Part shown: positions 1 through 15,860 of the stretch, in pieces
Numbering within the stretch: the stretch's first letter is position 1
Layout of the letters: each line of letters begins with the position of its first letter
IMG/VR virus record: IMGVR_UViG_3300038303_000284
Location: 1-23,313 of that record
DNA length: 23,313 nt
Strand: one strand, 5' to 3'
Source of the DNA: a virus
Position numbers and translations under genes: made by a program
The notes under the pieces: model-generated
Databases searched by the model: none
The model's input: only the letters and a program-made list of their open reading frames with translations
Told to the model about the DNA's origin: nothing

Positions 1-2567
1 ATCCGGGCCCATGGCTCCCCCTTGAACAGCTTGAAGCATGGATTGCTGTCGGTGAAGACAACGTCCCAATATTTCCCAAGCTCCTCTTCGGAGAGGTTGA
101 GCTGCTTTGCGCGCAGCGACAGAACCAACACTGTCATCATCGCTTTTCCGTCCGGAGAGACGGGAAGCGAATCCGCGAGCTCGTGAGCCACTTTCATGGC
201 AGCGAGCCAGTGCTTTGGTTCGTCGAGCTTCGTGAACTTTCGCCCCAACTCGGTAGCAACTCTATTTACGAGTTCTGCAACCTTGGAGTTCTTGTCCAGG
301 AAGGCCATACGATGTTCGATCGCCGCACGTTTCGAGAAGAGGCTTTCACACAACTCTTTACGTGCTTTGATTGAGCTTTCAATCGACTTGACCACAATAT
401 TTGTGAACATTGTCCACGTATTGTTGCCGTCGATACTGTAGAGCTCTTTTCCGACCGTACAACCGGACTTGGCCTTATGGTCATTGACCCATTCAGCCAA
501 GCGCCCCAGCTGGTGCTCGTCCAAGGTCATCCCCAGAAACGCATCAATGAACGACTCATTGTGTATTACTGCGGGGACCTTGGAGTACCACATTTGCGAG
601 TAGACACATCCAATGACTGTGCCCATATGCAAACCGAGATCATACATCGCCCAGTAGGCCTTATACCTCTGGTCAATGTAGTCGTCCAAGTTCGTAAATG
701 GATTCGCCTTCAGATCCATCTTCTCGGTGATCACCTTCTTCATCCTCGGGTTACCCTGAGAATCGAAGGGGTTCAGCATTTCTAGCAAGTTATTCTTCTG
801 ATTGATGAAGATCAGAGAATTATGCTTCAGAATTCTGAACATTTCGCCGGGACCGATGGGGTGCCGAACAACACTCAGGGTTTTACCCCTGTCATGCGAT
901 CGGAAAGAACCCTGGTCACCGTCGAAGTCACAACCACCACCAACAACTCGAAATTTCGAGCCGCTGGTGCAATGCTTCCTGCAGATGAAGCAATTGCCGT
1001 TTGCCCAACCAGGGACAAAGCGAGTATCGATGAACTCCCAAACAGTCTCACGACCATCTGTTCGTTTGATAATCACTTCGCCAGCCTCGGAATCCCACTT
1101 AAGAGACTCGAGGTTGTTCCTGATCGCACGTGGCAACGCGGCCAGGATCGAGTCGCACATTTTCTGAGTCATATACGCCGCCATGGGCATGTACTTCAGA
1201 TTAGTACCTCGAACCTCTGCTCCACAGAACTTCAGAGCCTTCTGACCAGCGAACCGATTCGACGGATTGACACGGATAGTGCCTCCATTGATTTCCAGTC
1301 CGTTAGTTTTCTGGTTCATCAGGTGTGTGGACACCGCTCGGACCATAGAACCCAGGGAAGTCACTGTGCTCGGGTTGATACCCGCATCGAGCAAGCACCT
1401 TGCGGCACCAGTACGATCAGGACGGGTACCAGCCATCTTGAGCTCAGTGTCTCCAAAGAGATCCAGGAAGAAGTCGGAGAAGTCCTCTCCGTCAGACTGG
1501 ACTTCGTCGGCCCAGCGATAGATATCGCCAGTGCCAAAGTCCTTCTGAATCTTCGTCACTTTCGAAGCGAGAGTTGCCTCATACGCCTCTTGGTGATTCA
1601 GATACATCTCCACCGCAAACTCTTTGTCTGCATCAGTAGCTGGAATACCCAGATACTGGTTCAGCTCGGCATAGGACTGCCCGGTGCTAGTAGCACCATG
1701 GTAGTCTTTCTGCTGAGCCTCTACAGACCCGTTAATGTTACAGAGCAAGAAGAGCACACGCTTTTCAGAATGCGCCAGCTGACTCTTCAGGTCCTCCCTG
1801 GTTGTGTTAACCAGGGGTTTCTGAAGCTTCCTGTCAAAAGTCACATATCCGTAACCTTTGATGAAGCCGTTCTCGAAGAGCGCACGGGGTTGAGCCGTGA
1901 TGTTTACCTCTCCGAGTCTGTACTTCTCTCTGTAGCTTTCAGGAAGAATGACATGGACGTTACCATCCTCGTCACCTTCTGTTGAGCCTTCCCGCTCAAC
2001 GAACTCAACATCAAAGTCTGTCCACATCAATTCTTTCTTGTTAGGAGAGAACGATGCGAAGTTTCTCATCGATTGAACCCGTTTTGCGAAGGCCCCATCA
2101 CAGGTAAACCCGCTAGTCCCATTGACTTCACGCAGAATATCCTGCTCCCTGAATTCCAGGTCTTTGCCGTCCGCTGCTAGACACAACGACAGCCCAAACC
2201 TTCGAGCCAGGTGACTCAGGCAGTCCTCGAGCACGAACTCTTCCGAGTCCGCATGCTTCTTGACTTCCCTGAGACAGACAAACGCATGGTCTACTCCATA
2301 TACCGAGTGGAGTACTCGACTCTTTTCAGAGATCGAAATCCAGTCTTTCTCGGCAGGAGACTCAAGCTCGACATTGAAAGCCCTTGCGACTTCCTCTGTC
2401 TTCTTGATAACCCATTCTGCGTCCGTATGTAGACACTGAAGTATGAATCCTGCCAAGCTGCGACCCTCACGGTCCAACATCTTGCAGTACAATGACACCA
2501 GTGCCCTCACTGACCCGTCAGTCTTTCGACCTACAGGTAGATTTAAAGCCTTTCCTTGGCTTGACAT
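1..2567 (-). CDS. Unit 1: large DFDGD-motif protein, candidate divergent two-barrel RNA polymerase-like (partial)
   Basis: An uninterrupted minus-strand frame starts at ATG 2567 behind a GAAAGGGG Shine-Dalgarno and is still open at the left edge, giving 855 residues without the C-terminus. It is by far the largest gene of the minus-strand array and the last transcribed in this window. Residues 547-551 read DFDGD after a Gly-rich turn (GGGC). The same Asp pattern holds the catalytic Mg2+ in the double-psi barrel of RNA polymerase beta-prime subunits and of single-chain YonO/QDE-1-type enzymes. About 17 residues later comes RHPIGPGE (568-575), which resembles the R-x-P-x-x-PGD motif of those enzymes but lies on the opposite side of the Asp motif. 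A Cys cluster (C526, C529, C533) precedes it. An EF-hand-like Ca2+ loop is an alternative reading. The ORF is certain; the polymerase idea is inference only. Confidence 0.6.
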   Translation of the reverse strand, partial: MSSQGKALNLPVGRKTDGSVRALVSLYCKMLDREGRSLAGFILQCLHTDAEWVIKKTEEVARAFNVELESPAEKDWISISEKSRVLHSVYGVDHAFVCLREVKKHADSEEFVLEDCLSHLARRFGLSLCLAADGKDLEFREQDILREVNGTSGFTCDGAFAKRVQSMRNFASFSPNKKELMWTDFDVEFVEREGSTEGDEDGNVHVILPESYREKYRLGEVNITAQPRALFENGFIKGYGYVTFDRKLQKPLVNTTREDLKSQLAHSEKRVLFLLCNINGSVEAQQKDYHGATSTGQSYAELNQYLGIPATDADKEFAVEMYLNHQEAYEATLASKVTKIQKDFGTGDIYRWADEVQSDGEDFSDFFLDLFGDTELKMAGTRPDRTGAARCLLDAGINPSTVTSLGSMVRAVSTHLMNQKTNGLEINGGTIRVNPSNRFAGQKALKFCGAEVRGTNLKYMPMAAYMTQKMCDSILAALPRAIRNNLESLKWDSEAGEVIIKRTDGRETVWEFIDTRFVPGWANGNCFICRKHCTSGSKFRVVGGGCDFDGDQGSFRSHDRGKTLSVVRHPIGPGEMFRILKHNSLIFINQKNNLLEMLNPFDSQGNPRMKKVITEKMDLKANPFTNLDDYIDQRYKAYWAMYDLGLHMGTVIGCVYSQMWYSKVPAVIHNESFIDAFLGMTLDEHQLGRLAEWVNDHKAKSGCTVGKELYSIDGNNTWTMFTNIVVKSIESSIKARKELCESLFSKRAAIEHRMAFLDKNSKVAELVNRVATELGRKFTKLDEPKHWLAAMKVAHELADSLPVSPDGKAMMTVLVLSLRAKQLNLSEEELGKYWDVVFTDSNPCFKLFKGEPWAR
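1796..1816 (-). repeat. 8-bp inverted repeat inside unit 1
   Basis: CCCTGGTT / AACCAGGG with a 5-nt loop. Nearby in the same gene are the perfect palindromes TTCAGAATTCTGAA (826-839), CTCGAAATTTCGAG (947-960) and GGTGCTA / TAGCACC (1683-1697). Confidence 0.65.
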
Positions 2568-2569
2568 AT

Positions 2570-2605
2570 TTAACCCCTTTCAATAGAGTTTGGCTTGTCT
2601 GCCAT
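2570..2605 (-). other. Possible 11-codon upstream ORF in the unit 1 leader
   Basis: Between the unit 1 leader hairpin and the unit 1 start lies ATG 2605 followed by MADKPNSIERG and a TAA that overlaps the unit 1 Shine-Dalgarno region. No good ribosome site precedes it because the hairpin lies directly upstream. It may be chance. The gap between hairpin and start codon (38 nt) is longer here than in most other units. Confidence 0.2.
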
Positions 2606-2650
2606 TGCGATAATCCCGGACCCCCAACGTGGGAACCCATCGTTATCGCA
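2606..2650 (-). promoter_or_regulatory. Leader hairpin of unit 1 (long form)
   Basis: Minus-strand RNA can pair TGCGATAA with TTATCGCA as an outer stem. An inner GGGTTCCC / GGGGGTCC stem with G-U pairs closes around loop ACGTT. It belongs to the 18-copy leader family and lies 30 nt downstream (minus sense) of the terminator of unit 2. Confidence 0.8.
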
Positions 2651-2680
2651 TAAAATAAAAAGAAGAGAAATAAAAAAGAA

Positions 2681-2702
2681 CCCACCCCCCGAAGGGGATG
2701 GG
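2681..2702 (-). terminator. Terminator-like hairpin of unit 2
   Basis: A 9-bp stem CCCATCCCC / GGGGGTGGG with loop UUCG in minus sense, followed by TTCTTTTTTA. Its one imperfect pair is G-U in minus-strand RNA but C-A in plus-strand RNA. Confidence 0.85.
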
Positions 2703-2723
2703 TCTTTTTCGTAGAAATCGAGA

Positions 2724-3089
2724 CTACGGCCGAGCGTAGTACCGGAACGTGGGCCAGACGAATCCGGTCTTGAGCACCAAGTACCCCATTCGCTCGATGA
2801 GGTCATCGGCCTTCTCGAGGGCCATCTCATGAACCCCGTGAATCATCTCGATGCGATCAGCGAACTGAGACTTGCTCTCATCCTTCTGCTGAACATCCTT
2901 CCGGTCACCGAGGTCGACTTTCCGGGACTTGAAGATCCCGTCGCACGCCTTCTCGAAGAGGTGCTGGTAGAGATCATTTTCCGTCTCTGGGCACATGTAG
3001 TGAGTGTTGAGCACTTCACCGTTCTTGTCCCTCTCCACCGGATCCGACAGTTCTGTCAAACAATTTGAGCACTGAATTTGAGTCTTCAT
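2724..3089 (-). CDS. Unit 2: small protein with N-terminal zinc-ribbon-like cysteines
   Basis: 121 residues, ATG 3089 behind AAAAGGGGAG. The N-terminus has C7-x2-C10 and H30-x2-C33, a spacing that fits a single zinc-binding knuckle. The rest is hydrophilic and acidic/basic mixed, probably helical (residues 65-105), ending in an aromatic, basic tail (FRYYARP). No family is recognised. It has its own leader hairpin upstream and terminator downstream, so it is probably expressed as a single-gene message. Small Cys-rich phage proteins often bind host proteins or nucleic acid, but nothing here shows which. Confidence 0.8.
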   Translation of the reverse strand: MKTQIQCSNCLTELSDPVERDKNGEVLNTHYMCPETENDLYQHLFEKACDGIFKSRKVDLGDRKDVQQKDESKSQFADRIEMIHGVHEMALEKADDLIERMGYLVLKTGFVWPTFRYYARP

Positions 3090-3107
3090 AGACTCCCCTT
3101 TTCATGG

Positions 3108-3152
3108 TGCGATATACGTGAGCCCCCAAAGCGGGAACCCATCGTTATCGCA
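3108..3152 (-). promoter_or_regulatory. Leader hairpin of unit 2 (long form)
   Basis: Outer stem TGCGATA / TATCGCA, then ACG / CGT, then TGGGTTCCC / GGGGGCTCA around loop GCTTT in minus sense. It ends 19 nt before the unit 2 ATG. The 28-nt G-free spacer 3153-3180 lies upstream of it. Confidence 0.85.
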
Positions 3153-3180
3153 TAAAATAAGAATGAGAGAATAAAAGAAA

Positions 3181-3204
3181 ACCCACCCCCCTTAGGGGGT
3201 GGGT
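3181..3204 (-). terminator. Terminator-like hairpin of unit 3
   Basis: A perfect 10-bp stem ACCCACCCCC / GGGGGTGGGT with a 4-nt loop (TAAG in minus sense), followed by TTTTCTTTTATTC. It lies 22 nt past the unit 3 stop. Confidence 0.85.
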
Positions 3205-3226
3205 AGTCTCTTGTGGGGAAGAAGCC

Positions 3227-3574
3227 TTACAGCTTTCTCTTCCCCTTCATGTATTCGATCAGCAGGGCGGGAGCCTTGTGCTCCTCCCTGTTGATCACCT
3301 TGATCACCTTGCCGAGATACTCAGTGGTGATCTTGCCACCGAAGAGCCACTTCATGACTTCCTTCGCAACCTTCGGCTGGCGCGTTACTGCGCTCAGCAT
3401 CTGGTTGATTTTGGTCAGCTGCGCGGTTTTCTTCTCCGCGAGCAGAGCATCTTGCAGAGCTTTGCGGTCCGCTGCCTTCTTCTGCAGCCAAGCCCTCTGA
3501 TCTTCATTCGCCTCGGCCGCATCCTTGTCGGAAATGGCCGGGACCCATACAGTACTTGGACGATCGAAGTTCAT
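3227..3574 (-). CDS. Unit 3: basic helical protein of unknown function
   Basis: 115 residues from ATG 3574, chosen because GGAAAGAGAGAAG lies just upstream. A longer in-frame reading from 3616 would start inside the leader hairpin and is rejected. Residues about 18-60 are Ala/Lys/Glu/Gln-rich and likely form a long helix or coiled coil. The C-terminus is strongly basic (KGKRKL). No cysteines, signal peptide or membrane segment are seen. The composition would suit nucleic-acid or protein binding, but no family is recognised. Confidence 0.78.
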   Translation of the reverse strand: MNFDRPSTVWVPAISDKDAAEANEDQRAWLQKKAADRKALQDALLAEKKTAQLTKINQMLSAVTRQPKVAKEVMKWLFGGKITTEYLGKVIKVINREEHKAPALLIEYMKGKRKL

Positions 3575-3594
3575 AACTTCTCTCTTTCCATGAG

Positions 3595-3641
3595 TGCGAT
3601 ATACGCGAGCCCCCAACGTGGGAACCCATCGTTATCGCGCA
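3595..3641 (-). promoter_or_regulatory. Leader hairpin of unit 3 (long form)
   Basis: Outer stem GCGATA / TATCGC and inner GGGTTCCC / GGGGGCTC around loop ACGTT in minus sense. It carries an extra GC dinucleotide at the 5' side (TGCGCGATA). A G-free spacer (3642-3670) precedes it. Confidence 0.83.
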
Positions 3642-3670
3642 TAAAAAGAATAAGAGAATATAAAAAAGAA

Positions 3671-3690
3671 CCCACCCCCGAAGGGGTGGG
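3671..3690 (-). terminator. Terminator-like hairpin of unit 4
   Basis: An 8-bp CCCACCCC / GGGGTGGG stem with a C(UUCG)G loop, then TTCTTTTTTATA in minus sense. It lies 23 nt past the unit 4 stop. Confidence 0.87.
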
Positions 3691-3713
3691 TCTTTGTCAT
3701 CTCGAGTCACCGT

Positions 3714-4091
3714 TCACCGTTCAAGACCGTCGAGTTTCTCCGCCTTCTCTAGAAGATCCAGAGATAACGTGCAATCGAACATCGCAATGTTCTTTATTGC
3801 TGCCGGCAATCTCCTAATGAACTCATCGGGCGAGTTTGCACCCATCCGATTGATGATAGTGCGGACCTCTTCGAGGTTTACCTCAACGAAAGAGGTAATC
3901 CCTGGCTCTCTCTCAACCAGGGTTGGCATCAGCCAGACTTCGAAATTGCGGTCGAAGCTTTTCGCGACGACTACTTCCACGAAGATCGTTTCGCCAATGC
4001 ACCCTACTTCTAGGGGCCGCTCATCTATGAACGCATAGATAGGCGACCTCCTCGGCCAAACTAGAGACAGTAGCTTAGTCAGAATACGCAT
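3714..4091 (-). CDS. Unit 4: protein of unknown function
   Basis: 125 residues from ATG 4091, placed by GGAAAGGAGAATACT directly before it. An in-frame ATG at 4145 lies inside the leader hairpin and is rejected. The N-terminus (MRILTKLLSLVWPRR) is a short hydrophobic, basic helix, possibly amphipathic or membrane-touching but too short for a confident membrane segment. The middle alternates strand-like hydrophobic stretches; the last 60 residues look helical and acidic. No family is recognised. It is flanked by its own hairpin pair. Confidence 0.78.
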   Translation of the reverse strand: MRILTKLLSLVWPRRSPIYAFIDERPLEVGCIGETIFVEVVVAKSFDRNFEVWLMPTLVEREPGITSFVEVNLEEVRTIINRMGANSPDEFIRRLPAAIKNIAMFDCTLSLDLLEKAEKLDGLER

Positions 4092-4111
4092 AGTATTCTC
4101 CTTTCCTTGGA

Positions 4112-4155
4112 TGCGATAATCCCAGGCCCCAAAGCGGGAACCCATCGTTATCGCA
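4112..4155 (-). promoter_or_regulatory. Leader hairpin of unit 4 (long form)
   Basis: Outer stem TGCGATAA / TTATCGCA and an inner GGTTCCC / GGGGCC-type stem around loop GCTTT in minus sense. Followed by CCAAGGAAAGGAG, the Shine-Dalgarno of unit 4. Its 28-nt G-free spacer is 4156-4183. Confidence 0.83.
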
Positions 4156-4183
4156 TAAAAAAAGAAATGAGAATAAAAAAGAG

Positions 4184-4205
4184 CCCTACCCCCGAAGGGG
4201 TAGGG
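4184..4205 (-). terminator. Terminator-like hairpin of unit 5
   Basis: A 9-bp stem CCCTACCCC / GGGGTAGGG with a UUCG loop in minus sense. One A-T pair replaces a C-G pair of the common form on both arms, a compensatory change. Followed by CTCTTTTTTATTC. Confidence 0.87.
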
Positions 4206-4229
4206 TCTTCTTGAGATGTAGCGATTAAG

Positions 4230-4394
4230 CTACTTCTTCGTGAGGTGATGTTTCACCCCATCGATTCTGCGCGCCAACCTGACGATCTCCTGCTTGGAGA
4301 ACTCAGGCTTCCCTGAAGACTTCTTCTCCAGAGCATCGATCCTGCAAAAGAGCAGGAAGTTGACCACGACCAGTGCGATGACCATGATTTCCAT
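4230..4394 (-). CDS. Unit 5: small membrane-anchored protein
   Basis: 54 residues from ATG 4394; AACGGAGG sits five bases upstream and sets this start. An in-frame ATG further upstream (4418) lies before the ribosome site and is rejected. Residues 2-17 (MVIALVVVNFLLF core) form one hydrophobic membrane segment. They are followed by a Lys-rich, probably helical tail (EKKSSGKPEFSKQE), so the charged part is expected in the cytoplasm. There are no motifs to name a function. Small single-span phage proteins include spanin parts, superinfection-exclusion proteins and host inhibitors, and none is favoured here. Its 3' end shares a 14-base segment with unit 6. Confidence 0.75.
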   Translation of the reverse strand: MEIMVIALVVVNFLLFCRIDALEKKSSGKPEFSKQEIVRLARRIDGVKHHLTKK

Positions 4395-4412
4395 GGTGCC
4401 TCCGTTTCTTGG

Positions 4413-4435
4413 TGCCATAACCCAACGTTATGGCA
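4413..4435 (-). promoter_or_regulatory. Leader hairpin of unit 5 (short form)
   Basis: A perfect 9-bp stem TGCCATAAC / GTTATGGCA around a 5-nt loop in minus sense. Compared with the TGCGAT / ATCGCA form, the third pair is flipped from G-C to C-G on both arms. The whole inner arm of the long form is missing. Confidence 0.87.
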
Positions 4436-4463
4436 TATAAAAAAAGAAAATGATAAAAGAAAA

Positions 4464-4483
4464 CCCACCCCCGAAGGGGTGGG
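4464..4483 (-). terminator. Terminator-like hairpin of unit 6
   Basis: An 8-bp CCCACCCC / GGGGTGGG stem with a C(UUCG)G loop, then TTTTCTTTTATC in minus sense. It lies 19 nt past the unit 6 stop. Confidence 0.85.
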
Positions 4484-4502
4484 TGATCTTGGGATGTAGC
4501 GA

Positions 4503-5108
4503 TTAAGAAGAATCGCGTCTACCTTGGCACCAGGAATAATTGGACTTTGAAGTCCAATACATCCAAGTACTCAGGTACCGAGAGAAACTCTCCCGGATCG
4601 AGCCACTGTCGTCGGCGGGAAGATTCCCAATCATCGGTTGGGAAACCGATAACTTCCATGCTTCTTCCACATGGCATCCCTTGGAGGCGTCGAGCACTGG
4701 CTTGTCCAGCACTACTTTGCTCGCCTTGAGAGTTGCTCCCGATCCGCTTTCAAAGCAGACTGAGACGCAATTCTCTTCGGTGAGTTCATCCCACACCTCG
4801 TCAAATCCTTCGCCTTCAGCCTCTGCGAAAGTCTTGACGAGATCTTCGTCAAGGACTGAGAAGTCCCGGCCACCGGTCCATGCTCCAGACCGGCTGGGGT
4901 ACACAGCATCTTCTCGGGGGAGTTCCCCTTCGAAGAGCTTTCCGACATCCGTGTGTGCCGCGAATACACGACATACACATGCCCAGGAAACCACTGCCTC
5001 AAACAGAAGACATCGCAGTGGCAAGCCTTCCCTTCTGAGCTTCCTTGTCGATACTGTATCTGGCGTTGAGACCAGACCCTCCGACTGCTCTACAGAAAAT
5101 GTTGACAT
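4503..5108 (-). CDS. Unit 6: acidic protein of unknown function
   Basis: 201 residues from ATG 5108, chosen because GGAAAGG lies 11 bases upstream. In-frame ATGs at 5126 and 5150 fall before or across the ribosome site. It is the largest of units 2-18. Residues about 31-50 (PLRCLLFEAVVSWACVCRVF) are hydrophobic with three Cys and could be a buried core or a weak membrane segment. The middle is very acidic (DELTEEN, AEAEGEGFDEV). No family is recognised. The coding sequence contains a 9-bp near-perfect hairpin at 4539-4558 and another at about 4831-4858. Confidence 0.75.
   Translation of the reverse strand: MSTFSVEQSEGLVSTPDTVSTRKLRREGLPLRCLLFEAVVSWACVCRVFAAHTDVGKLFEGELPREDAVYPSRSGAWTGGRDFSVLDEDLVKTFAEAEGEGFDEVWDELTEENCVSVCFESGSGATLKASKVVLDKPVLDASKGCHVEEAWKLSVSQPMIGNLPADDSGSIRESFSRYLSTWMYWTSKSNYSWCQGRRDSS
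4539..4558 (-). repeat. 9-bp inverted repeat inside unit 6
   Basis: ATTGGACTT / AAGTCCAAT with a 2-nt loop near the 3' end of the gene; perfect arms. Confidence 0.7.
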
Positions 5109-5128
5109 CAGAGTATACCTTTCCATGG

Positions 5129-5173
5129 TGCGATATACGTGAGCCCCCAACGCGGGAACCCATCGTTATCGCA
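5129..5173 (-). promoter_or_regulatory. Leader hairpin of unit 6 (long form)
   Basis: Same fold as the unit 2 leader with loop GCGTT in minus sense: TGCGATA / TATCGCA outside and TGGGTTCCC / GGGGGCTCA inside. The loop varies among copies while the stem arms stay fixed. A 27-nt G-free spacer (5174-5200) precedes it. Confidence 0.85.
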
Positions 5174-5200
5174 TAAAATAAGAATGAGAGAATAAAAAAA

Positions 5201-5224
5201 GACCCCACCCGTAAGGGTGAGGTC
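5201..5224 (-). terminator. Terminator-like hairpin of unit 7
   Basis: GACCTCACCC / GGGTGGGGTC stem with loop TTAC in minus sense, then a T-rich run. Its one imperfect pair is U-G in minus-strand RNA but C-A in plus-strand RNA. It begins 6 nt past the unit 7 stop. Confidence 0.85.
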
Positions 5225-5229
5225 TATTG

Positions 5230-5409
5230 TCACTCAGGAGAAAGTTCATCTCTCCATGCCTCCGTGAGGGAGAACTTGCACAGCTGACAAAGGATTACAC
5301 CCCTTGCCCGGCGCTCTCCCTCTACCTCGAGGGGGTCGTAACCGTTCCCGTCGTCCAACCCGAGCTTTTTTTCGCAGTCATCGCAGAGAAGCTTGTCTTC
5401 TTCTTCCAT
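5230..5409 (-). CDS. Unit 7: small four-cysteine zinc-ribbon protein
   Basis: 59 residues, ATG 5409 behind GAAAGGAAATCTA, stop TGA 5230-5232. It has two CxxC knuckles, C9-DD-C12 and C41-QL-C44, the usual arrangement of a zinc ribbon. Between them lies a polar linker (GLDDGNGYDPLEVEGE). It is strongly acidic at both ends. Such mini zinc ribbons in phages often bind nucleic acid or host transcription proteins, but no specific family can be named. It has its own leader and terminator like its neighbours. Confidence 0.82.
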   Translation of the reverse strand: MEEEDKLLCDDCEKKLGLDDGNGYDPLEVEGERRARGVILCQLCKFSLTEAWRDELSPE

Positions 5410-5424
5410 TAGATTTCCTTTCTA

Positions 5425-5469
5425 GCGATATACGTGAGCCCCCAAAGCGGGAACCCATCGTTATCGCGC
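5425..5469 (-). promoter_or_regulatory. Leader hairpin of unit 7 (long form)
   Basis: Outer stem GCGATA / TATCGC and inner TGGGTTCCC / GGGGGCTCA around loop GCTTT in minus sense, followed by CTAGAAAGGAAATCTA and the ATG. The ribosome-site cassette differs from those of units 2-6 but matches units 8, 10 and 14. Confidence 0.83.
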
Positions 5470-5497
5470 ATAAAAAGAATGAGAGAATAAAAGAAAA

Positions 5498-5517
5498 CCC
5501 ACCCCCGAAGGGGTGGG
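5498..5517 (-). terminator. Terminator-like hairpin of unit 8
   Basis: An 8-bp CCCACCCC / GGGGTGGG stem with a UUCG loop, then TTTTCTTTTATTC in minus sense. It starts only 6 nt past the unit 8 stop. Confidence 0.86.
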
Positions 5518-5523
5518 TCTTTG

Positions 5524-5799
5524 TCACCCCTTGTGCTTATACAAGGGGCAAATCTTCTCGCCTTCAAGCTGTCCAGCGACACCGGCCGACACCAGATACT
5601 TGGTGCGCAGCCAGACGGCCTGCGAGAACAGGCTATCTGGGACTTCAGCATTCGCTGTACATCCCACGACGACCGGTCGTCCAGCGACACCCCGCCACAG
5701 CACTGACACCATCCCCGTCTCTTCGCGGAGGGCGCAGCTTTCGCAGGGAATCTTCCCTCCTACGAAGTCGTTCGCTGTCAACATACCATCGATTGGCAT
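5524..5799 (-). CDS. Unit 8: small Cys-containing protein of unknown function
   Basis: 91 residues from ATG 5799, set by GAAAGGAAATCTGTT upstream; an in-frame ATG at 5835 is inside the leader hairpin. Cysteines lie at C19-x2-C22, C47 and C84, which could form one zinc site, though the spacing is wide. The segment around 30-50 (VSVLWRGVAGRPVVVGC) is strand-like, and the protein ends in a basic tail (KHKG). No family is recognised. Confidence 0.77.
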   Translation of the reverse strand: MPIDGMLTANDFVGGKIPCESCALREETGMVSVLWRGVAGRPVVVGCTANAEVPDSLFSQAVWLRTKYLVSAGVAGQLEGEKICPLYKHKG

Positions 5800-5816
5800 A
5801 ACAGATTTCCTTTCTG

Positions 5817-5857
5817 GCGATACGTGAGCCCCCAAAGCGGGAACCCATCGTTATCGC
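5817..5857 (-). promoter_or_regulatory. Leader hairpin of unit 8 (long form)
   Basis: GCGATA / TATCGC outside, TGGGTTCCC / GGGGGCTCA inside, loop GCTTT in minus sense. The two bases that form the A-T bulge in other copies are absent here, so the outer stem joins the inner stem more directly. Confidence 0.82.
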
Positions 5858-5888
5858 ATAAAAAAAGAAATGAGAGAATAAAAAAGAG

Positions 5889-5910
5889 CCCTACCCCCGA
5901 AGGGGTAGGG
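5889..5910 (-). terminator. Terminator-like hairpin of unit 9
   Basis: A 9-bp CCCTACCCC / GGGGTAGGG stem with a UUCG loop, then CTCTTTTTTATTC in minus sense. Same sequence as the unit 5 terminator. Confidence 0.86.
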
Positions 5911-5919
5911 TCTTCTAAG

Positions 5920-6102
5920 CTACTTCTGAATCGACTGCTGAATCGACTGCAGCTTTTCCCACAGCTTATCGATGTAGGCGCCTTGCTTGTCAATCAGCGC
6001 CTCCTGATCCTTGATCAGTGCTTCCTGCTTTCTGAGCAGGGCACTCTGATCCTTGATCAGGCGATCCTGGTCCACCATCAAGTCGACACGTTCGTTGGCC
6101 AT
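5920..6102 (-). CDS. Unit 9: short coiled-coil protein built of repeats
   Basis: 60 residues from ATG 6102 behind AAAAGGAGG. After a short head (MANERVDLMV) the chain is a run of near-heptads: DQDRLIK, DQSALLR, KQEALIK, DQEALID, KQGAYID, KLWEKLQ. Hydrophobic residues fall at regular a/d positions and each repeat opens with D/K-Q, so this should form a parallel coiled-coil oligomer. The DNA mirrors this with two copies of the inverted repeat CTGATCCTTGATCAG. A role as an oligomerising adaptor or inhibitor is possible but unsupported. Confidence 0.8.
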   Translation of the reverse strand: MANERVDLMVDQDRLIKDQSALLRKQEALIKDQEALIDKQGAYIDKLWEKLQSIQQSIQK

Positions 6103-6121
6103 GATGGCCTCCTTTTCTTGG

Positions 6122-6169
6122 TGCCATTAAACCCGTGAGTCCCCACCATGGGAACCCACCGTTATGGCA
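6122..6169 (-). promoter_or_regulatory. Leader hairpin of unit 9 (long form, flipped outer pair)
   Basis: Outer stem TGCCAT / ATGGCA and inner GTGGGTTCCC / GGGGACTCAC with loop ATGGT in minus sense. Relative to units 1-8 both the outer third pair and an inner U-G to U-A pair changed while pairing was kept. Confidence 0.86.
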
Positions 6170-6195
6170 TATGAAAATAAATAGAATAAAAAAGA

Positions 6196-6219
6196 ACTCA
6201 CTCTCCGAAGAGAGTGAGT
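6196..6219 (-). terminator. Terminator-like hairpin of unit 10
   Basis: A perfect 10-bp stem ACTCACTCTC / GAGAGTGAGT with a UUCG loop, then TCTTTTTTATTC in minus sense. The stem sequence differs widely from the CCCACCCC form but loop, length and tail are the same. Confidence 0.88.
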
Positions 6220-6278
6220 CTTTTACCAGCACCTGAGGGAGAAACCCTGCTGGTTAGGTTCCGACAGAAAAGCCTAAA

Positions 6279-6419
6279 TTAGGCCGGACTGCGGGCAGCC
6301 TTTTTCTTGGCTTGCTCGCCGTTCGCCGCCGAAGAAGACTTCTTCACGCGCTTGGCTTTGTTGGCCTGCGTGTGGGCCAGTCTTTCGGCCGGCGTCCAGT
6401 CCGAGTGGGACCTTGGCAT
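6279..6419 (-). CDS. Unit 10: very basic 46-residue peptide
   Basis: 46 residues, ATG 6419 behind CTAGAAAGGAAATCTACT. About a quarter of residues are Lys or Arg (NKAKRVKKSSSAANGEQAKK and KKKAARSP), with Ala and Ser making up much of the rest. This resembles a disordered nucleic-acid-binding tail of the histone H1 or AlgP type, though it is far shorter. The 60 nt between stop and terminator also hold a CCAGCA / TGCTGG inverted repeat. Function unknown. Confidence 0.72.
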   Translation of the reverse strand: MPRSHSDWTPAERLAHTQANKAKRVKKSSSAANGEQAKKKAARSPA

Positions 6420-6435
6420 AGTAGATTTCCTTTCT

Positions 6436-6479
6436 AGCCATGCTGATGCCTCCCACCATGGGAACCCAGCGTTATGGCA
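6436..6479 (-). promoter_or_regulatory. Leader hairpin of unit 10 (long form, weaker)
   Basis: Outer stem TGCCAT / ATGGCT with a TTCCC / GGGAG-type inner arm and loop ATGGT in minus sense. The inner arm is less complete than in the other long copies. Followed by CTAGAAAGGAAATCT as in units 7, 8 and 14. Confidence 0.75.
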
Positions 6480-6500
6480 TAAAATAAGAATAAGAATAAA

Positions 6501-6536
6501 AAAGAACCCCACCCCCCGAAGGGGATGGAGTTCTTT
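6501..6536 (-). terminator. Terminator-like hairpin of unit 11 (extended)
   Basis: A 16-bp stem in minus sense: AAAGAACTCCATCCCC pairs with GGGGGTGGGGTTCTTT around a UUCG loop. Two pairs are U-G in minus-strand RNA and would be C-A in plus-strand RNA. Confidence 0.87.
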
Positions 6537-6552
6537 GGCAAAGAGAGGCTGC

Positions 6553-6804
6553 CTATCTCTTGATACGAGACAGCCTCTTTACGGCCCAACTCGCCACTCG
6601 CAGGACTGCGAGTTCGATCTTGTCTCTCGAGACAAGATCCTCGAGCCGTAAGATAGTCTCCTCGTTGAGAGAGACTATCTCACGTTCATGTGTTACTGCA
6701 AGGGCTCTGATCAGCCCTCGCAGTCGCCCGATCTCCTCCACGGAAAGTCGGCTATAGCCAACGATCTTCAGGAGGTTCTGAACGTCCTCAGAGGGGGCAC
6801 CCAT
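6553..6804 (-). CDS. Unit 11: helical protein whose gene is packed with inverted repeats
   Basis: 83 residues from ATG 6804, set by GGAACGGAGGAGCC; an in-frame ATG at 6861 lies in the leader hairpin. The protein is Leu/Arg/Glu-rich and almost entirely helix-like (SVEEIGRLRGLIRALAV, ETILRLEDLVSRDKIEL), ending in a basic tail (KRLSRIKR). It could be a small helical bundle or DNA-binding protein, but no helix-turn-helix can be asserted. At least five strong inverted repeats tile its 252 bp, including an 11-bp arm pair with a 2-nt loop at 6616-6639. The RNA may therefore matter as well as the protein. Confidence 0.75.
   Translation of the reverse strand: MGAPSEDVQNLLKIVGYSRLSVEEIGRLRGLIRALAVTHEREIVSLNEETILRLEDLVSRDKIELAVLRVASWAVKRLSRIKR
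6596..6726 (-). repeat. Tiled inverted repeats inside unit 11
   Basis: Successive hairpins: ACTCGCAG / CTGCGAGT (6596-6613, 2-nt loop), GATCTTGTCTC / GAGACAAGATC (6616-6639, 2-nt loop), AGATAGTCTC / GAGACTATCT (6651-6680) and CTGC..AGGGCT / AGCCCT..GCAG (6696-6723). A further AGAGGCTG / CAGCCTCT pair spans the stop region (6544-6578). Confidence 0.75.
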
Positions 6805-6823
6805 GGCTCCTCCGTTCCTTGGT

Positions 6824-6871
6824 TGCCATTCAACCCGTGAGTCCCCACCATGGGAACCCACCGTTATGGCA
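6824..6871 (-). promoter_or_regulatory. Leader hairpin of unit 11 (long form, flipped outer pair)
   Basis: TGCCAT / ATGGCA outside and GTGGGTTCCC / GGGGACTCAC inside, loop ATGGT in minus sense. Nearly identical to the unit 9 leader. A 28-nt G-free spacer (6872-6899) lies upstream. Confidence 0.86.
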
Positions 6872-6899
6872 TAGAAAGAGAAATGAGAATAAAAGAAAA

Positions 6900-6919
6900 C
6901 CCACCCCCGAAGGGGTGGG
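6900..6919 (-). terminator. Terminator-like hairpin of unit 12
   Basis: An 8-bp CCCACCCC / GGGGTGGG stem with a UUCG loop, then TTTTCTTTTATTC in minus sense. Confidence 0.86.
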
Positions 6920-6945
6920 TGATCTTGGGACTGGTGATCTAGGGA

Positions 6946-7107
6946 CTAGTGGCTGCCGCCGTGCAGGTCCACCTTCACGTATCCCAGATCCTTTACGATT
7001 TCGAGCACTTCTGTCCAAGAAAGAAACAACTTATGGTGTTTCTTCTTGTAGGACTCGATCACGGAGATGAACTCTAGTTCATCTGCGCTCAGTGACTTGG
7101 GCTTCAT
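6946..7107 (-). CDS. Unit 12: 53-residue protein of unknown function
   Basis: 53 residues, ATG 7107 behind AAAAGGAGGGCTCT, stop TAG 6946-6948. The sequence reads as two helices separated by a basic stretch (SYKKKHHKLF), with an acidic first helix (SADELEFISVIE) and a short strand at the end (YVKVDLHG). The C-terminus is Gly/His. No family is recognised. It shares its leader and ribosome-site cassette almost base for base with unit 13, which points to duplication of that cassette. Confidence 0.75.
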   Translation of the reverse strand: MKPKSLSADELEFISVIESYKKKHHKLFLSWTEVLEIVKDLGYVKVDLHGGSH

Positions 7108-7127
7108 AGAGCCCTCCTTTTCTTAGA

Positions 7128-7148
7128 GCCATAACCCAGCGTTATGGC
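7128..7148 (-). promoter_or_regulatory. Leader hairpin of unit 12 (short form)
   Basis: A perfect 8-bp GCCATAAC / GTTATGGC stem with a 5-nt loop in minus sense, followed by TCTAAGAAAAGGAGG. The G-free spacer upstream is about 27 nt. Confidence 0.87.
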
Positions 7149-7176
7149 ATATAAATAAGAAGAGAATAAAAAAGAA

Positions 7177-7200
7177 CTCCACCCCCCGGAGGGGGTGGAG
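7177..7200 (-). terminator. Terminator-like hairpin of unit 13
   Basis: A 10-bp CTCCACCCCC / GGGGGTGGAG stem with loop UCCG, then TTCTTTTTTATTC in minus sense. Confidence 0.87.
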
Positions 7201-7220
7201 CTGAGGATAGTGATCTCAGG

Positions 7221-7451
7221 TTAGCTAGACCTGAAGATCACTAGCACCGGGTAGTGCATGCGAGGAAGGAGTTCGTAAGTTCTCCTTCCCCCCGCTGCGA
7301 TAGTCTTGGTTTTGAACCCTTTCAGGTTTCGATCCAAGTACTGATCGCATTCCCCAAGGAACTTTTTAAGCTCCTTGGAGGTCCCCTCAAACTCTTCGCG
7401 GATGTCTGTTTCTCCGCCGAGTCCGAGGAATTGGGCTTTGAAATGTTTCAT
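7221..7451 (-). CDS. Unit 13: 76-residue protein of unknown function
   Basis: 76 residues from ATG 7451 behind AAAAGGAGGGCTCT. The first half is charged and likely helical (EFEGTSKELKKFLGEC); the second half is basic, then strand-like with a hydrophobic end (YPVLVIFRSS). One Cys only. No recognised motif. The gene contains two clear inverted repeats, GGAAGGAG / CTCCTTCC near 7262 and CCAAGGA / TCCTTGG near 7353. Confidence 0.77.
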   Translation of the reverse strand: MKHFKAQFLGLGGETDIREEFEGTSKELKKFLGECDQYLDRNLKGFKTKTIAAGGRRTYELLPRMHYPVLVIFRSS

Positions 7452-7471
7452 AGAGCCCTCCTTTTCTTGGA

Positions 7472-7492
7472 GCCATAACCCAACGTTATGGC
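7472..7492 (-). promoter_or_regulatory. Leader hairpin of unit 13 (short form)
   Basis: A perfect 8-bp GCCATAAC / GTTATGGC stem with loop GTTGG in minus sense. Differs from the unit 12 leader almost only in the loop. Spacer to the next hairpin is 27 nt. Confidence 0.87.
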
Positions 7493-7519
7493 ATATAATA
7501 AGAATGAGAATAAAAAAGA

Positions 7520-7543
7520 ACTCACTCTCCGAAGAGAGTGAGT
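7520..7543 (-). terminator. Terminator-like hairpin of unit 14
   Basis: A perfect 10-bp ACTCACTCTC / GAGAGTGAGT stem with a UUCG loop and TCTTTTTTATTC tail in minus sense. Same stem as the unit 10 terminator. Confidence 0.88.
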
Positions 7544-7596
7544 CTTTGCCATTTTCTGTTCCCAGGCATGGCTGCCCGGCAAGAAGCAGGGGAGGA

Positions 7597-7782
7597 TTAC
7601 TCCTTCCCCTGCTCCTTGCGGTGTGCCTGCATAGCGATTATTGCCGCCAGGCTACTGTGGTCATAGACCGACAACATCTGGCTGAGCTGAGCCGCCCATG
7701 CAGGCGCGGCCTTCAGGCGTGCCAACGCTTTCGCGAAGTGCACCTTGAAGGCCTCCTCCTCTTCAGGAGGGACAATGCTCAT
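7597..7782 (-). CDS. Unit 14: small helical, Ala-rich protein
   Basis: 61 residues from ATG 7782, set by CTAGAAAGGAAATCT. A much longer in-frame reading from 7971 would pass through the terminator and leader of the neighbouring unit and is rejected. An acidic head (PPEEEEAF) is followed by an Ala-rich helix (FAKALARLKAAPAWAAQL), a second helix and a polar Lys/Glu tail. Probably a small helical bundle; no family recognised. Its 3' flank (7547-7575) closely resembles that of unit 18. Confidence 0.76.
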   Translation of the reverse strand: MSIVPPEEEEAFKVHFAKALARLKAAPAWAAQLSQMLSVYDHSSLAAIIAMQAHRKEQGKE

Positions 7783-7796
7783 AGATTTCCTTTCTA

Positions 7797-7838
7797 GCGG
7801 CGCCAGTACTTCCCACCATGGGAACCCGGCGTTGCCGC
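7797..7838 (-). promoter_or_regulatory. Leader hairpin of unit 14 (divergent long form)
   Basis: Outer stem GCGGC / GCCGC, then GCC / GGC, then TTCCC / GGGAA around loop ATGGT in minus sense. Several bases changed in both arms relative to the other units yet the pairing survives, which is strong evidence for selection on the fold. Confidence 0.84.
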
Positions 7839-7871
7839 ATATAAAAAAGAAAAGAAGAAATAAAAAAGAGC

Positions 7872-7899
7872 CCTCTCTACCCCCGAATGGGCAGAGAGG
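7872..7899 (-). terminator. Terminator-like hairpin of unit 15
   Basis: An 11-bp stem CCTCTCTGCCC / GGGTAGAGAGG with a 6-nt loop in minus sense. The single imperfect pair is G-U in minus-strand RNA (A-C in plus). Followed by CTCTTTTTTATTTC. Confidence 0.83.
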
Positions 7900-7906
7900 A
7901 CTCGCG

Positions 7907-8002
7907 CTATGCGATAAACCAGGCGAGCAGCCATACTGCCAGCCAGACGGCCAACAGCATAGCGACTGCAATCTCCTGGTTAGGGGGACGCTTGATCACC
8001 AT
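7907..8002 (-). CDS. Unit 15: 31-residue single-span membrane peptide
   Basis: 31 residues, ATG 8002 behind GGAAAGGAGAAGATC, stop TAG 7907-7909. After a short basic head (MVIKRPPNQ) the whole remainder (IAVAMLLAVWLAVWLLAWFI) is one hydrophobic membrane helix rich in Trp. The positive head should stay in the cytoplasm. It is too short for a standard gene call but has a full leader, Shine-Dalgarno and terminator, the same casing as its larger neighbours, which argues that it is real. A toxin-like, holin-modulating or exclusion peptide would fit; none is shown. Confidence 0.75.
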   Translation of the reverse strand: MVIKRPPNQEIAVAMLLAVWLAVWLLAWFIA

Positions 8003-8021
8003 GATCTTCTCCTTTCCTTGG

Positions 8022-8038
8022 TGCGCGGCGTACCCGCA
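8022..8038 (-). promoter_or_regulatory. Leader hairpin of unit 15 (short, GC-rich form)
   Basis: TGCGG / CCGCGCA can pair around a small loop in minus sense, a degenerate short form. Position, G-free spacer upstream and CCAAGGAAAGGAG downstream match the family. Confidence 0.68.
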
Positions 8039-8068
8039 TATAAATAAGAAAAGAGAATAAAAAGAAAA

Positions 8069-8090
8069 CCCACCCCTGTGAGGGGGTGGG
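8069..8090 (-). terminator. Terminator-like hairpin of unit 16
   Basis: An 8-bp CCCACCCC / GGGGTGGG stem with loop CTCACA, then TTTTCTTTTTATTC in minus sense. The UUCG loop of other copies is replaced. Confidence 0.84.
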
Positions 8091-8099
8091 TTACTACTG

Positions 8100-8393
8100 C
8101 TAACAGCCCATCATGGACTGGTAGCAGTTGGCCTTGACGATCTTTCGATCAATCAAGACCCGGAGGTATTGCTCACCACCATTGGTAAGCAATACGGCTG
8201 CCTTGGGTTCTGTGTACCCATCGGTCCCGGTTATACGGTATACGACTGCCGTCCACTCACCACTGGTGAGAGTGAACATGCTCGTACACCGCGGTAGGCA
8301 GCCTTCTTGGAAGGCGCCTCCTACCGGCGTTGCGGCTCCCATGTCCAGAGACAGAGTCTCCGAAGCATGGGAGGTAGAGCGGAATACCATCAT
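8100..8393 (-). CDS. Unit 16: 97-residue protein with four cysteines
   Basis: 97 residues from ATG 8393; GGAGG lies six bases upstream, and a second ATG follows immediately at 8390. Cysteines sit at C32-x3-C36 and C90, C97. The central part is strand-rich (FTLTSGEWTAVVYRITG, AAVLLTNGGEQYLRVLI), suggesting a small beta-fold. It shares a TLT...LTNGE pattern with unit 17 and may be a longer paralogue. The gene carries strong inverted repeats, including a nested one at 8293-8325 and GTATTGCT / AGCAATAC at 8166-8195. Function unknown. Confidence 0.77.
   Translation of the reverse strand: MMVFRSTSHASETLSLDMGAATPVGGAFQEGCLPRCTSMFTLTSGEWTAVVYRITGTDGYTEPKAAVLLTNGGEQYLRVLIDRKIVKANCYQSMMGC
8293..8325 (-). 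repeat. Nested inverted repeat inside unit 16
   Basis: GGTAGG / CCTACC encloses GCCTTC / GAAGGC with a 3-nt loop, a two-tier hairpin inside the coding region. Confidence 0.7.
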
Positions 8394-8413
8394 AGTATTC
8401 CTCCTTTTCTTGG

Positions 8414-8436
8414 TGCTATGGCCCTATGCCATGGCA
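8414..8436 (-). promoter_or_regulatory. Leader hairpin of unit 16 (short form)
   Basis: TGCCATGGC / GCCATAGCA stem with one mismatch and a 5-nt loop in minus sense, followed by CCAAGAAAAGGAGG. Confidence 0.78.
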
Positions 8437-8457
8437 TAAGAAGAAGAAAAAAGAAAA

Positions 8458-8479
8458 CCCACCCCTGTGAGGGGGTGGG
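8458..8479 (-). terminator. Terminator-like hairpin of unit 17
   Basis: An 8-bp CCCACCCC / GGGGTGGG stem with loop CTCACA and TTTTCTTTTTTC tail in minus sense. Directly beside it, 8476-8495 carries about three tandem copies of GGGTGT (plus strand). Confidence 0.84.
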
Positions 8480-8498
8480 TGTGGGTGTGGGTGTGGCC

Positions 8499-8678
8499 CT
8501 ACCACCACCGGGAATGCGTGATTTCAATCACACACTCGCCGTTGGTGAGCACCAGCGGGGAGTTGTCATCTCCTTCTGGTGGGTTACACCCCGTGAGGGT
8601 GATGACCTCGTGGCCATCAACCTCCTCCAGAAGGCCAATGCCCTCTGGAGTTAGAGTAAGCATGTTGTAGTACATCAT
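8499..8678 (-). CDS. Unit 17: small strand-rich protein, possible paralogue of unit 16
   Basis: 59 residues from ATG 8678, set by AACGGAGGTAAGT; an in-frame ATG at 8717 is in the leader. The chain is acidic with several strand-like stretches (MLTLTPEGIGLL, HEVITLTG, SPLVLTNGECVIEIT) and ends in SRWW. The MLTLT start and LVLTNGE segment line up with MFTLT and LLTNGGE of unit 16, next door, suggesting an old duplication followed by loss of the N-terminal part. Function unknown. Confidence 0.76.
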   Translation of the reverse strand: MMYYNMLTLTPEGIGLLEEVDGHEVITLTGCNPPEGDDNSPLVLTNGECVIEITHSRWW

Positions 8679-8698
8679 ACTTACCTCCGTTTCTTGGA

Positions 8699-8720
8699 GC
8701 CATGGCCCTATTGCCATGGC
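8699..8720 (-). promoter_or_regulatory. Leader hairpin of unit 17 (short form)
   Basis: GCCATGGC pairs with GCCATGGC around a 6-nt loop in minus sense, followed by TCCAAGAAACGGAGG. A 29-30 nt G-free spacer precedes it. Confidence 0.82.
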
Positions 8721-8750
8721 ATAAGAATAAAAAATATAAAAAAAAGAAAA

Positions 8751-8773
8751 CCCACCCCCTATGAGGGAGTGGG
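8751..8773 (-). terminator. Terminator-like hairpin of unit 18
   Basis: A 9-bp CCCACTCCC / GGGGGTGGG stem with loop TCATA in minus sense and one G-U pair that would be C-A in the other strand. Followed by TTTTCTTTTTTTT. Confidence 0.83.
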
Positions 8774-8803
8774 TGTGCCATTTCTGTTGCCACGCATGGC
8801 TGC

Positions 8804-8818
8804 GCCGAATCTTATTCG
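8804..8818 (-). repeat. Perfect inverted repeat in the unit 18 3' flank
   Basis: CCGAAT / ATTCGG with a 3-nt loop lies between the unit 18 stop and its terminator. The neighbouring bases (8775-8803) are a diverged copy of the 3' flank of unit 14. Confidence 0.6.
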
Positions 8819-8831
8819 GAGTGCCAGGCTG

Positions 8832-9035
8832 TTACTCCTTGGTACGCAGCAAGGCTTTGCCAGTTTTGAAACTGACGAAGCCCGCGCGCATCAGGAGCTG
8901 CCCAGTGCACCATCCGATGACTTTCATCACCGGACGCACAACGGGCCAGCCGAGCTTGGCGATTCTGACCACGGTCTGAAACAGACCATGCAGCATCTCG
9001 CCAAGCACTGACACCCAGTTAAGGAAACCTACCAT
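8832..9035 (-). CDS. Unit 18: small hydrophobic, basic protein, possibly membrane-associated
   Basis: 67 residues from ATG 9035, set by GGAAAGGAGCCTGCC; a longer in-frame reading to 9203 crosses the leader and is rejected. It is rich in Val, Leu, Gly and Trp with scattered Arg/Lys (VSVLGEMLHGLFQTVVRIA, WPVVRPVMKVIGWCTGQLL) and has a basic tail (KTGKALLRTKE). Amphipathic helices that lie on or cross a membrane are likely. A holin-like role is possible by composition only. It is the first gene of the array: no terminator hairpin lies upstream of it. Confidence 0.76.
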   Translation of the reverse strand: MVGFLNWVSVLGEMLHGLFQTVVRIAKLGWPVVRPVMKVIGWCTGQLLMRAGFVSFKTGKALLRTKE

Positions 9036-9071
9036 GGCAGGCTCCTTTCCTGGAACTATCCGTTCCTTGGA

Positions 9072-9092
9072 GCCACGACCCATTGTCATGGC
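9072..9092 (-). promoter_or_regulatory. Leader hairpin of unit 18 (short form)
   Basis: An 8-bp GCCATGAC / GTCGTGGC stem with a 5-nt loop in minus sense; one A-T pair of the family became a G-U pair. A second small stem GGAAC / GTTCC lies between it and the ribosome site. Confidence 0.8.
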
Positions 9093-9107
9093 ATAAAAAA
9101 AAGAAGA

Positions 9108-9324
9108 TGGGGGGGGGCATGAAACGCCAAGCACCCAATTCTGCATATATATAAACTGTTCAGGAGCCCAGTCTGAGATTTTTCGACTTATATAAACTAT
9201 CAAAAAAAATATACAATAAAATTTTCAAACTCATGGATTCTCCTCATTGCGAGGCGGCCGGGGATAAGATACTATTGAAGGTTCGCACTAATCTATTATC
9301 GACTGTGATGGAAGGAAACTGGGG
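9108..9324. promoter_or_regulatory. AT-rich divergent intergenic region with a repeated 10-mer
   Basis: This stretch separates the leftward array from the rightward genes and holds no convincing gene. It has a run of nine G near 9110-9118 and two exact copies of TATATAAACT at 9148-9157 and 9189-9198, 41 bp apart (AGTTTATATA on the minus strand). A TTGTAT, 17 bp, ATATAA arrangement on the minus strand around 9190-9219 could be a sigma-70-type promoter for unit 18, and TACAAT on the plus strand near 9215 could be a -10 box for the reductase. These are visual candidates only. Confidence 0.45.
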
Positions 9325-11277: not shown

Positions 11278-11302
11278 GCTTCACCGTTCTCCTTCTTCCT
11301 AG

Positions 11303-11335
11303 GGCCCCGCTAGTCCCCACTGGCGGGGCCTTTTT
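11303..11335 (+). terminator. Rho-independent terminator after the reductase
   Basis: A perfect 8-bp GGCCCCGC / GCGGGGCC stem with a 12-nt loop and five T. The T run sits only four bases before AGGAGA, the ribosome site of the next gene, so the hairpin also forms the immediate 5' leader of the virion operon. Confidence 0.9.
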
Positions 11336-11349
11336 ATAGGAGAAGATAA

Positions 11350-15312: not shown

Positions 15313-15320
15313 GAGATAAG

Positions 15321-15848: not shown

Positions 15849-15860
15849 GGAGTAATAAAC

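Follow-up and report, generated by a model that had tools for sequence, protein, structure and literature searches.

An array of eighteen small-gene units with covarying leader hairpins and paired translation starts in an IMG/VR virus fragment

The IMG/VR virus record IMGVR_UViG_3300038303_000284 (positions 1 to 23,313, the 23.3-kb stretch hereafter called the window) carries on its minus strand an array of 18 tandem units, from about 9095 down to 2567, in which a hairpin (H1) precedes the ribosome-binding site (RBS) of each gene. The units are organized as intrinsic terminator, T/C-rich tract, the pentamer TATGC, H1, Shine-Dalgarno sequence (SD) and a small open reading frame (ORF). The pairing in H1 has been retained while both of its arms changed, supporting its classification as a conserved RNA fold under selection. 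Two further hairpins, H2 at the SD and H3 at the start codon, keep their pairing as well. The array ORFs encode 31-201 aa, except that of unit 1 (855+ aa). Strong intrinsic terminators precede units 1-17 and thus stand between all units; unit 18, with which the array begins, is not preceded by a terminator but retains the T-run and TATGC.

The leader hairpin H1

A first-pass annotation of positions 4413-7838 had described leader hairpins in which base changes on one arm are compensated on the other. All the claimed hairpins are present, on the minus strand and in each of the 18 units; the annotated stretch covers units 5-14, whereas units 1-4 (2606-4155) and 15-18 (8024-9093) lie outside it. 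The individual hairpins, all on the minus strand, are as follows.

2606..2650, minus strand: H1 of unit 1, long class; precedes the ORF (855+ aa) that carries the DFDGD motif
3108..3152, minus strand: H1 of unit 2, long
3595..3639, minus strand: H1 of unit 3, long; two extra bases (GC) separate TATGC from the stem
4112..4155, minus strand: H1 of unit 4, long
4413..4435, minus strand: H1 of unit 5, short class
5129..5173, minus strand: H1 of unit 6, long
5425..5468, minus strand: H1 of unit 7, long; 2-nt GC insertion
5817..5858, minus strand: H1 of unit 8, long
6122..6169, minus strand: H1 of unit 9, long, GCCAT/ATGGC
6437..6479, minus strand: H1 of unit 10, long, GCCAT/ATGGC
6824..6871, minus strand: H1 of unit 11, long, GCCAT/ATGGC
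7127..7149, minus strand: H1 of unit 12, short
7471..7493, minus strand: H1 of unit 13, short
7797..7839, minus strand: H1 of unit 14, long, GCGGC/GCCGC
8024..8038, minus strand: H1 of unit 15, shortest, GCGG/CCGC
8414..8436, minus strand: H1 of unit 16, short; one C.A mismatch
8698..8721, minus strand: H1 of unit 17, short
9071..9093, minus strand: H1 of unit 18, short; first unit of the array, upstream terminator absent

The hairpin starts inside TATGC or 2 nt past it, ends about 4-12 nt upstream of the SD in nearly all units, and ranges in size from 4 bp to roughly 19 bp. The outer stem was correctly given as GCGAT/ATCGC for units 1-4 and 6-8, but the outermost T-A pair that had been added to it forms in only eight units overall. 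The variant GCCAT/ATGGC, noted for units 5, 9 and 11, has in fact a wider distribution (units 5, 9-13 and 17), and GCGGC/GCCGC is found in unit 14 as described. Units 15 and 18 carry GCGG/CCGC and GCCAT/GUGGC, the latter with one U-G pair, and a C.A mismatch in unit 16 is the single break. Switches between U-G and U-A in the inner stem are real (the U-G pairs of the long class become U-A in units 9-11 and 14) but are one-sided changes. The loops, previously thought to vary freely, fall instead into four types, each common to a subgroup of units. Seven units (5, 12, 13 and 15-18) have a short hairpin lacking the inner stem. The short H1 (UGCCAUAACGNUGGGUUAUGGC) resembles a long H1 from which the segment between two copies of GGGUU is missing (units 9 and 11 versus 5, 12 and 13), and may have been derived from it by loss of that part. 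Because the shortened hairpin still pairs, the size of H1 appears flexible while its closure is kept.

Covariation was evaluated on a hand-made structural alignment, which underlies both the arm-swap and the tree tests, as MAFFT misaligned the 3' arm of the long class. Across the 18 units the outer stem forms 87 of 89 possible Watson-Crick pairs with its own arms. After swapping of the arms among units the mean was 72.4 and the maximum 83, and none of 20,000 trials reached 87. In a tree-aware null model, in which a neighbour-joining tree of the units was used to re-evolve the columns while the number of changes was kept constant, the observed covariation sum was not reached in any of 1,500 simulations, with per-pair p values of 0.0007 (O3), 0.02 (O4), below 0.001 (S6) and 0.01 (S7). 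The short class aligned by itself gave 94% paired cells, versus 21-40% in slid registers; its covariation score was reached by none of 500 shuffles, and three of its pairs had changed on both sides. Placed on the tree, the covariation comes down to some five or six events, a smaller number than 18 units might lead one to expect, and it rests on 18 copies within one genome because no homologous array was found.

When each H1 and its complement were folded, the transcript strand was the more stable in 17 of 18 cases. The transcript-strand hairpins contain 31 G.U pairs, and their sole A.C combination is the mismatch in unit 16. The wobble pairs and the greater stability of the transcript strand therefore identify the selected object as RNA rather than a DNA palindrome. 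This agrees with the first-pass proposal that an RNA fold immediately ahead of the RBS is under selection. An intrinsic terminator was ruled out as the identity of H1: the stem is followed by an A-rich RBS and not by a T-run, and hence does not qualify. A comparison with the Rfam covariance models yielded no match at gathering score, only sub-threshold hits.

Hairpins at the Shine-Dalgarno sequence and the start codon

The first-pass annotation had recognized a single leader structure; H1 was correct, but H2 and H3 had been missed. H2 lies directly 3' of H1, 0-2 nt away in most units, and can form on the minus strand in 17 of the 18. It consists of a stem of 2-4 bp and a loop of exactly 7 nt with the consensus A[AU]G[AG]AA[AC]; loops of any other length fall far behind. 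The stems are weak and of varied sequence (CC/GG, CUC/GAG, UCC/GGA, UCU/GGA, UAGA/UCUA and CAGA/UCUG). The own arms score 125 versus 77 for swapped halves, and none of 5,000 swaps reached the former value (17 units, at least 2 bp), which establishes H2 statistically as a conserved pairing with covarying arms. The RBS regions of the array are of the types AAGRAAMGGAGG or UAGAAAGGAAAUCUA. In units 7, 8, 10 and 14 the H2 loop is the SD itself, AAGGAAA, while most other units have the SD on the 3' side. Two examples are given below.

5410..5424, minus strand: H2 of unit 7, UAGA-AAGGAAA-UCUA, with the SD in the 7-nt loop; identical in units 10 and 14
unit 8, minus strand: H2, CAGA-AAGGAAA-UCUG

Among the early genes of related phages some SD hairpins show the geometry of H2, in small numbers, e.g. 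AUCUC-UUGAAAG-GAGAU in L050 and GCUC-UUGAAAG-GAGC in L048.

In H3 the start codon is located in or at the loop, the 5' arm lies between the SD and AUG, and the 3' arm falls within the first codons. Stems of at least 5 bp are present in 11 of the 18 units (2567-9045, minus strand). Swapping the upstream and coding parts gave a mean of 3.8 such units and a maximum of 9 in 2,000 trials, and the H3 score was matched in 1 of 5,000 swaps. The stem sequences nearly all differ, those of units 4 and 16 being similar. Here, too, a conserved pairing, at the translation start, is shown statistically. Examples are the following.

3080..3095, minus strand: H3 of unit 2, GAGUCU-AUGA-AGACUC
3566..3580, minus strand: H3 of unit 3, GAAGUU-AUG-AACUUC
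4081..4099, minus strand: H3 of unit 4, AGAAUAC-UAUGC-GUAUUCU
6097..6109, minus strand: H3 of unit 9, GGCCA-UCA-UGGCC
7099..7114, minus strand: H3 of unit 12, GGGCU-CUAUGA-AGCCC
7994..8006, minus strand: H3 of unit 15, GAUCA-UGG-UGAUC
8381..8401, minus strand: H3 of unit 16, GGAAUACUA-UGA-UGGUAUUCC
9024..9045, minus strand: H3 of unit 18, GGAGCCUGC-CAUG-GUAGGUUUC

No enrichment of H3-type hairpins was seen in the late genes of the array phage (3/25), in its relatives (24% versus 26% in the null) or in Moorella phage MTATph1. A hairpin at AUG occurs in a gene of 192-195 aa in two related phages (L060 at about 12200, minus strand; L061 at about 2854), with the arms GAGUAGGA/UCCUAUUC and GAAUGGGA/UCCUAUUC, and is retained through compatible wobble changes.

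The TATGC element and readings of the array

All 18 units share the pentamer TATGC without variation, and further Ts are invariant in the tract of about 20-30 nt that it ends. Since its second T is paired in only eight units, and since two extra bases separate TATGC from the H1 stem in units 3 and 7, the element must be conserved for a reason other than pairing. The late promoters of phage phiKZ consist of TATG, with G as the first transcribed base (PMC4666361). By analogy, if transcription started at the G of TATG, the 5' end of the mRNA would coincide with the start of the H1 stem, except in units 3 and 7, where it would lie two bases before it. Sigma-70 promoters were not found above chance. 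A candidate polymerase may be encoded by the ORF of unit 1, whose motif CDFDGDQG suggests a divergent two-barrel RNA polymerase. Searches of Pfam, PHROGs, PDB and phage records gave no match to this ORF, and no relatives were found; its single-sequence structure model was unusable (pLDDT 35).

2679..2704, minus strand: intrinsic terminator upstream of the leader of unit 1; similar ones before units 2-17
2648..2678, minus strand: T/C-rich tract of unit 1, ending in TATGC
3..2567, minus strand: ORF of unit 1, 855+ aa, truncated at the edge of the window; CDFDGDQG is its two-barrel RNA polymerase-like motif

The region upstream of unit 18 (9100-9165, minus strand) contains a TATA-like stretch and, after it, TTTCATGCCCCCCCCC. 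In relatives the first small gene is preceded by a similar TTCATGCCCACCCCCCCC or TTTCACGCCCACCCCC (L048, about 2555-2615; L049, about 1520-1570; L050, about 3585-3620, minus strand). Between units 17 and 16, the terminator adjoins a short GTGTGG tandem repeat (8470-8495).

Our best explanation is that each unit is a stand-alone, probably monocistronic cassette in a gene region that is probably expressed early. Transcription would start at the invariant TATG, possibly by a phage-encoded polymerase, and each short mRNA would stop at its own terminator. H1 would then close the 5' end of the mRNA, most likely shielding it from degradation and keeping the ribosome site clear of upstream sequence, whereas the terminator hairpin behind the gene would protect the 3' end. 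H2 and/or H3 fold the translation start locally and may thereby set its strength; such folding may also guard the start region against pairing with the numerous similar sequences in the array. Taken as a whole—monocistronic cassettes, start at TATG, H1 capping the 5' end and a folded translation start—we give this explanation about an even chance.

Several points weigh against it. It was built from sequence, and the start at TATG is argued by analogy with an unrelated phage whose enzyme is multisubunit. Outside the array, no T-rich/TATGC element was found in the phage, which leaves its promoter role without independent support, and the polymerase-like label of the 855+ aa ORF depends on a short motif. 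H2 and H3 were first spotted in folds and tested afterwards, so that an independent check is needed. Lastly, the wide size range of H1 fits a general role and points to no specific mechanism.

Alternatively, transcription from the start of the array may yield one long RNA, which an RNase E/J- or RNase III-like activity then cleaves within the U-rich segment preceding every H1. Such processing, which we regard as unlikely although conceivable, would likewise yield mRNAs with H1 at the 5' end and a terminator hairpin at the 3' end. It agrees with the arrangement of nearly all units, in which a U-rich single-stranded stretch is flanked immediately by hairpins on both sides, and with a separate candidate promoter upstream of unit 18 that is partly similar in relatives; however, the strong terminators between all units would stop a long transcript, and the invariant TATGC is more specific than the sequence requirement of RNase E. 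A function of H1, together with H2, as a put-like antitermination RNA, by which the polymerase would read through the terminators of the array, accounts for the terminator after each gene and for two tandem hairpins 0-2 nt apart at the start of most units, the put RNA of phage HK022 being composed of two tandem stem-loops. For this purpose one element at the front would be enough, and neither the presence of 18 copies nor the widely differing sizes of H1 and the SD inside H2 fit, so that we hold this analogy to be very improbable. Nearly as improbable is an action of the inverted repeat in DNA, either as a protein binding site or as an N4-type hairpin promoter. The repeat does recur, adjoining the candidate promoter, but the 31 G.U pairs of the transcript strand correspond to A.C in its complement, and the transcript strand is the more stable one in all but one of the 18 hairpins. 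On this strand asymmetry the repeat was rejected both as a DNA palindrome and as an N4 promoter: a DNA palindrome would lack the observed bias, and an N4-type hairpin in the template strand would give the opposite one.

The folds at the translation start allow two further interpretations, each of which we consider a rather doubtful one. H1, H2 and H3 could be translational operators: bound by a protein of the phage or the host, they would allow joint repression or timing of the small genes, in the manner of T4 RegA or gp43. The folds overlap the SD and AUG, the H2 loop is conserved, and T4 repressors act at such sites (PMC3014915); on the other hand, there is little common sequence among the H1 loops and H3 stems, and the conservation of the H2 loop is partly due to the SD itself. 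The three hairpins could also constitute a dedicated translation-start module of one phage lineage, in which a start codon in a hairpin loop and an SD at a fixed 7-nt loop are read or resolved by a phage-specific factor; an initiation factor, a helicase or a polymerase-coupled ribosome would be candidates. Such a module, if it existed, would allow the phage to translate its small genes selectively or at a set time.

Relatives and known systems

By its terminase, the nearest GenBank phage is Moorella phage MTATph1 (34% identity), and IMG/VR relatives exist at about 80-88% terminase identity. The sequences of the closest relatives (88%) end before the array locus. In two relatives, G005 and G006, the same locus next to the ribonucleotide reductase (RNR) gene holds small SD-led ORFs and no array. 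The array is common to only one other contig, L065, which is near-identical. A generic detector of terminator, hairpin, SD and ATG found 15 units there and fewer than two in any unrelated locus examined. A first DNA pattern searched in IMG/VR for a homologous array retrieved only the near-identical contig and chance hits; with a second pattern, multiple matches among those listed were again confined to that contig, which leaves a distant array possible. The sole match in genome contigs was a chance one, inside a coding sequence.

Leader hairpins and structured translation starts are already known singly in phages. The closest described layout is that of the SAS/ESAS elements of Cluster K mycobacteriophages (PMC3203893). 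As with ESAS, the genome contains many copies—here 18—of an inverted repeat located directly before the SD and upstream of the start codons of non-structural genes. For ESAS, the authors report that RNA pairing is not supported by the differences between the left and right repeats, and they favour a DNA site (PMC3203893). In contrast, the arm differences in the array do support RNA pairing. The array also lacks the 13-bp SAS GGGATAGGAGCCC at the RBS, and each of its units has its own terminator. It may thus be regarded as an RNA-pairing counterpart to the unexplained repeats of the mycobacteriophages.

The resemblance to the late promoters of phiKZ consists in a short TATG by the presumed start (18/18) with little else conserved (PMC4666361). 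In phiKZ, however, the polymerase is multisubunit, whereas in the present fragment, an incomplete genome, only one ORF with DFDGD was seen and the start site is predicted.

In phage T4, hairpins over the SD and/or AUG are described for genes e, soc, 49 and I-TevI as well as 38 and 25, and both inhibitory and helpful ones are known among these single start-site hairpins (PMC3014915). H2 and H3 similarly place the SD and/or AUG in local hairpins, although AUG is mostly in the loop and not in the helix, and here such hairpins are a feature of the whole array. Transcripts of T4 gene e that start at an internal late promoter lack the 5' strand of the helix (PMC3014915). The 5' arm of H3, by contrast, lies between the SD and AUG, and every translatable transcript of the array must therefore contain it.

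Hairpins of the ompA type at the 5' terminus stabilise bacterial mRNAs. H1 would share with them its position at or near the 5' end and before the RBS, the 5' end of the array mRNAs being predicted, and differs from them in the presence of 18 diverging copies in one phage.

In the literature searched, no tandem array of 18 cassettes with own terminators and with folds at leader, SD and start codon that diverge yet conserve their pairing was found. The array constitutes a natural mutational series, in which one genome offers 18 solutions to the same structural problem; the part of each hairpin in mRNA stability and translation is therefore directly testable, making the array a ready test set for the control of short phage mRNAs by RNA structure.

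The right part of the window encodes on the plus strand the terminase, the portal protein and a protein which, from its sequence, we take to be RNR. A protein of 999 aa is encoded at 12313-15312; only its C-terminal region was recognised, as exonuclease/CRISPR-associated-like (phrog_1706, phrog_2506). The G+C content is 0.51-0.53 in the array and polymerase-like region (1-9100), versus 0.38-0.49 in 9100-23313.

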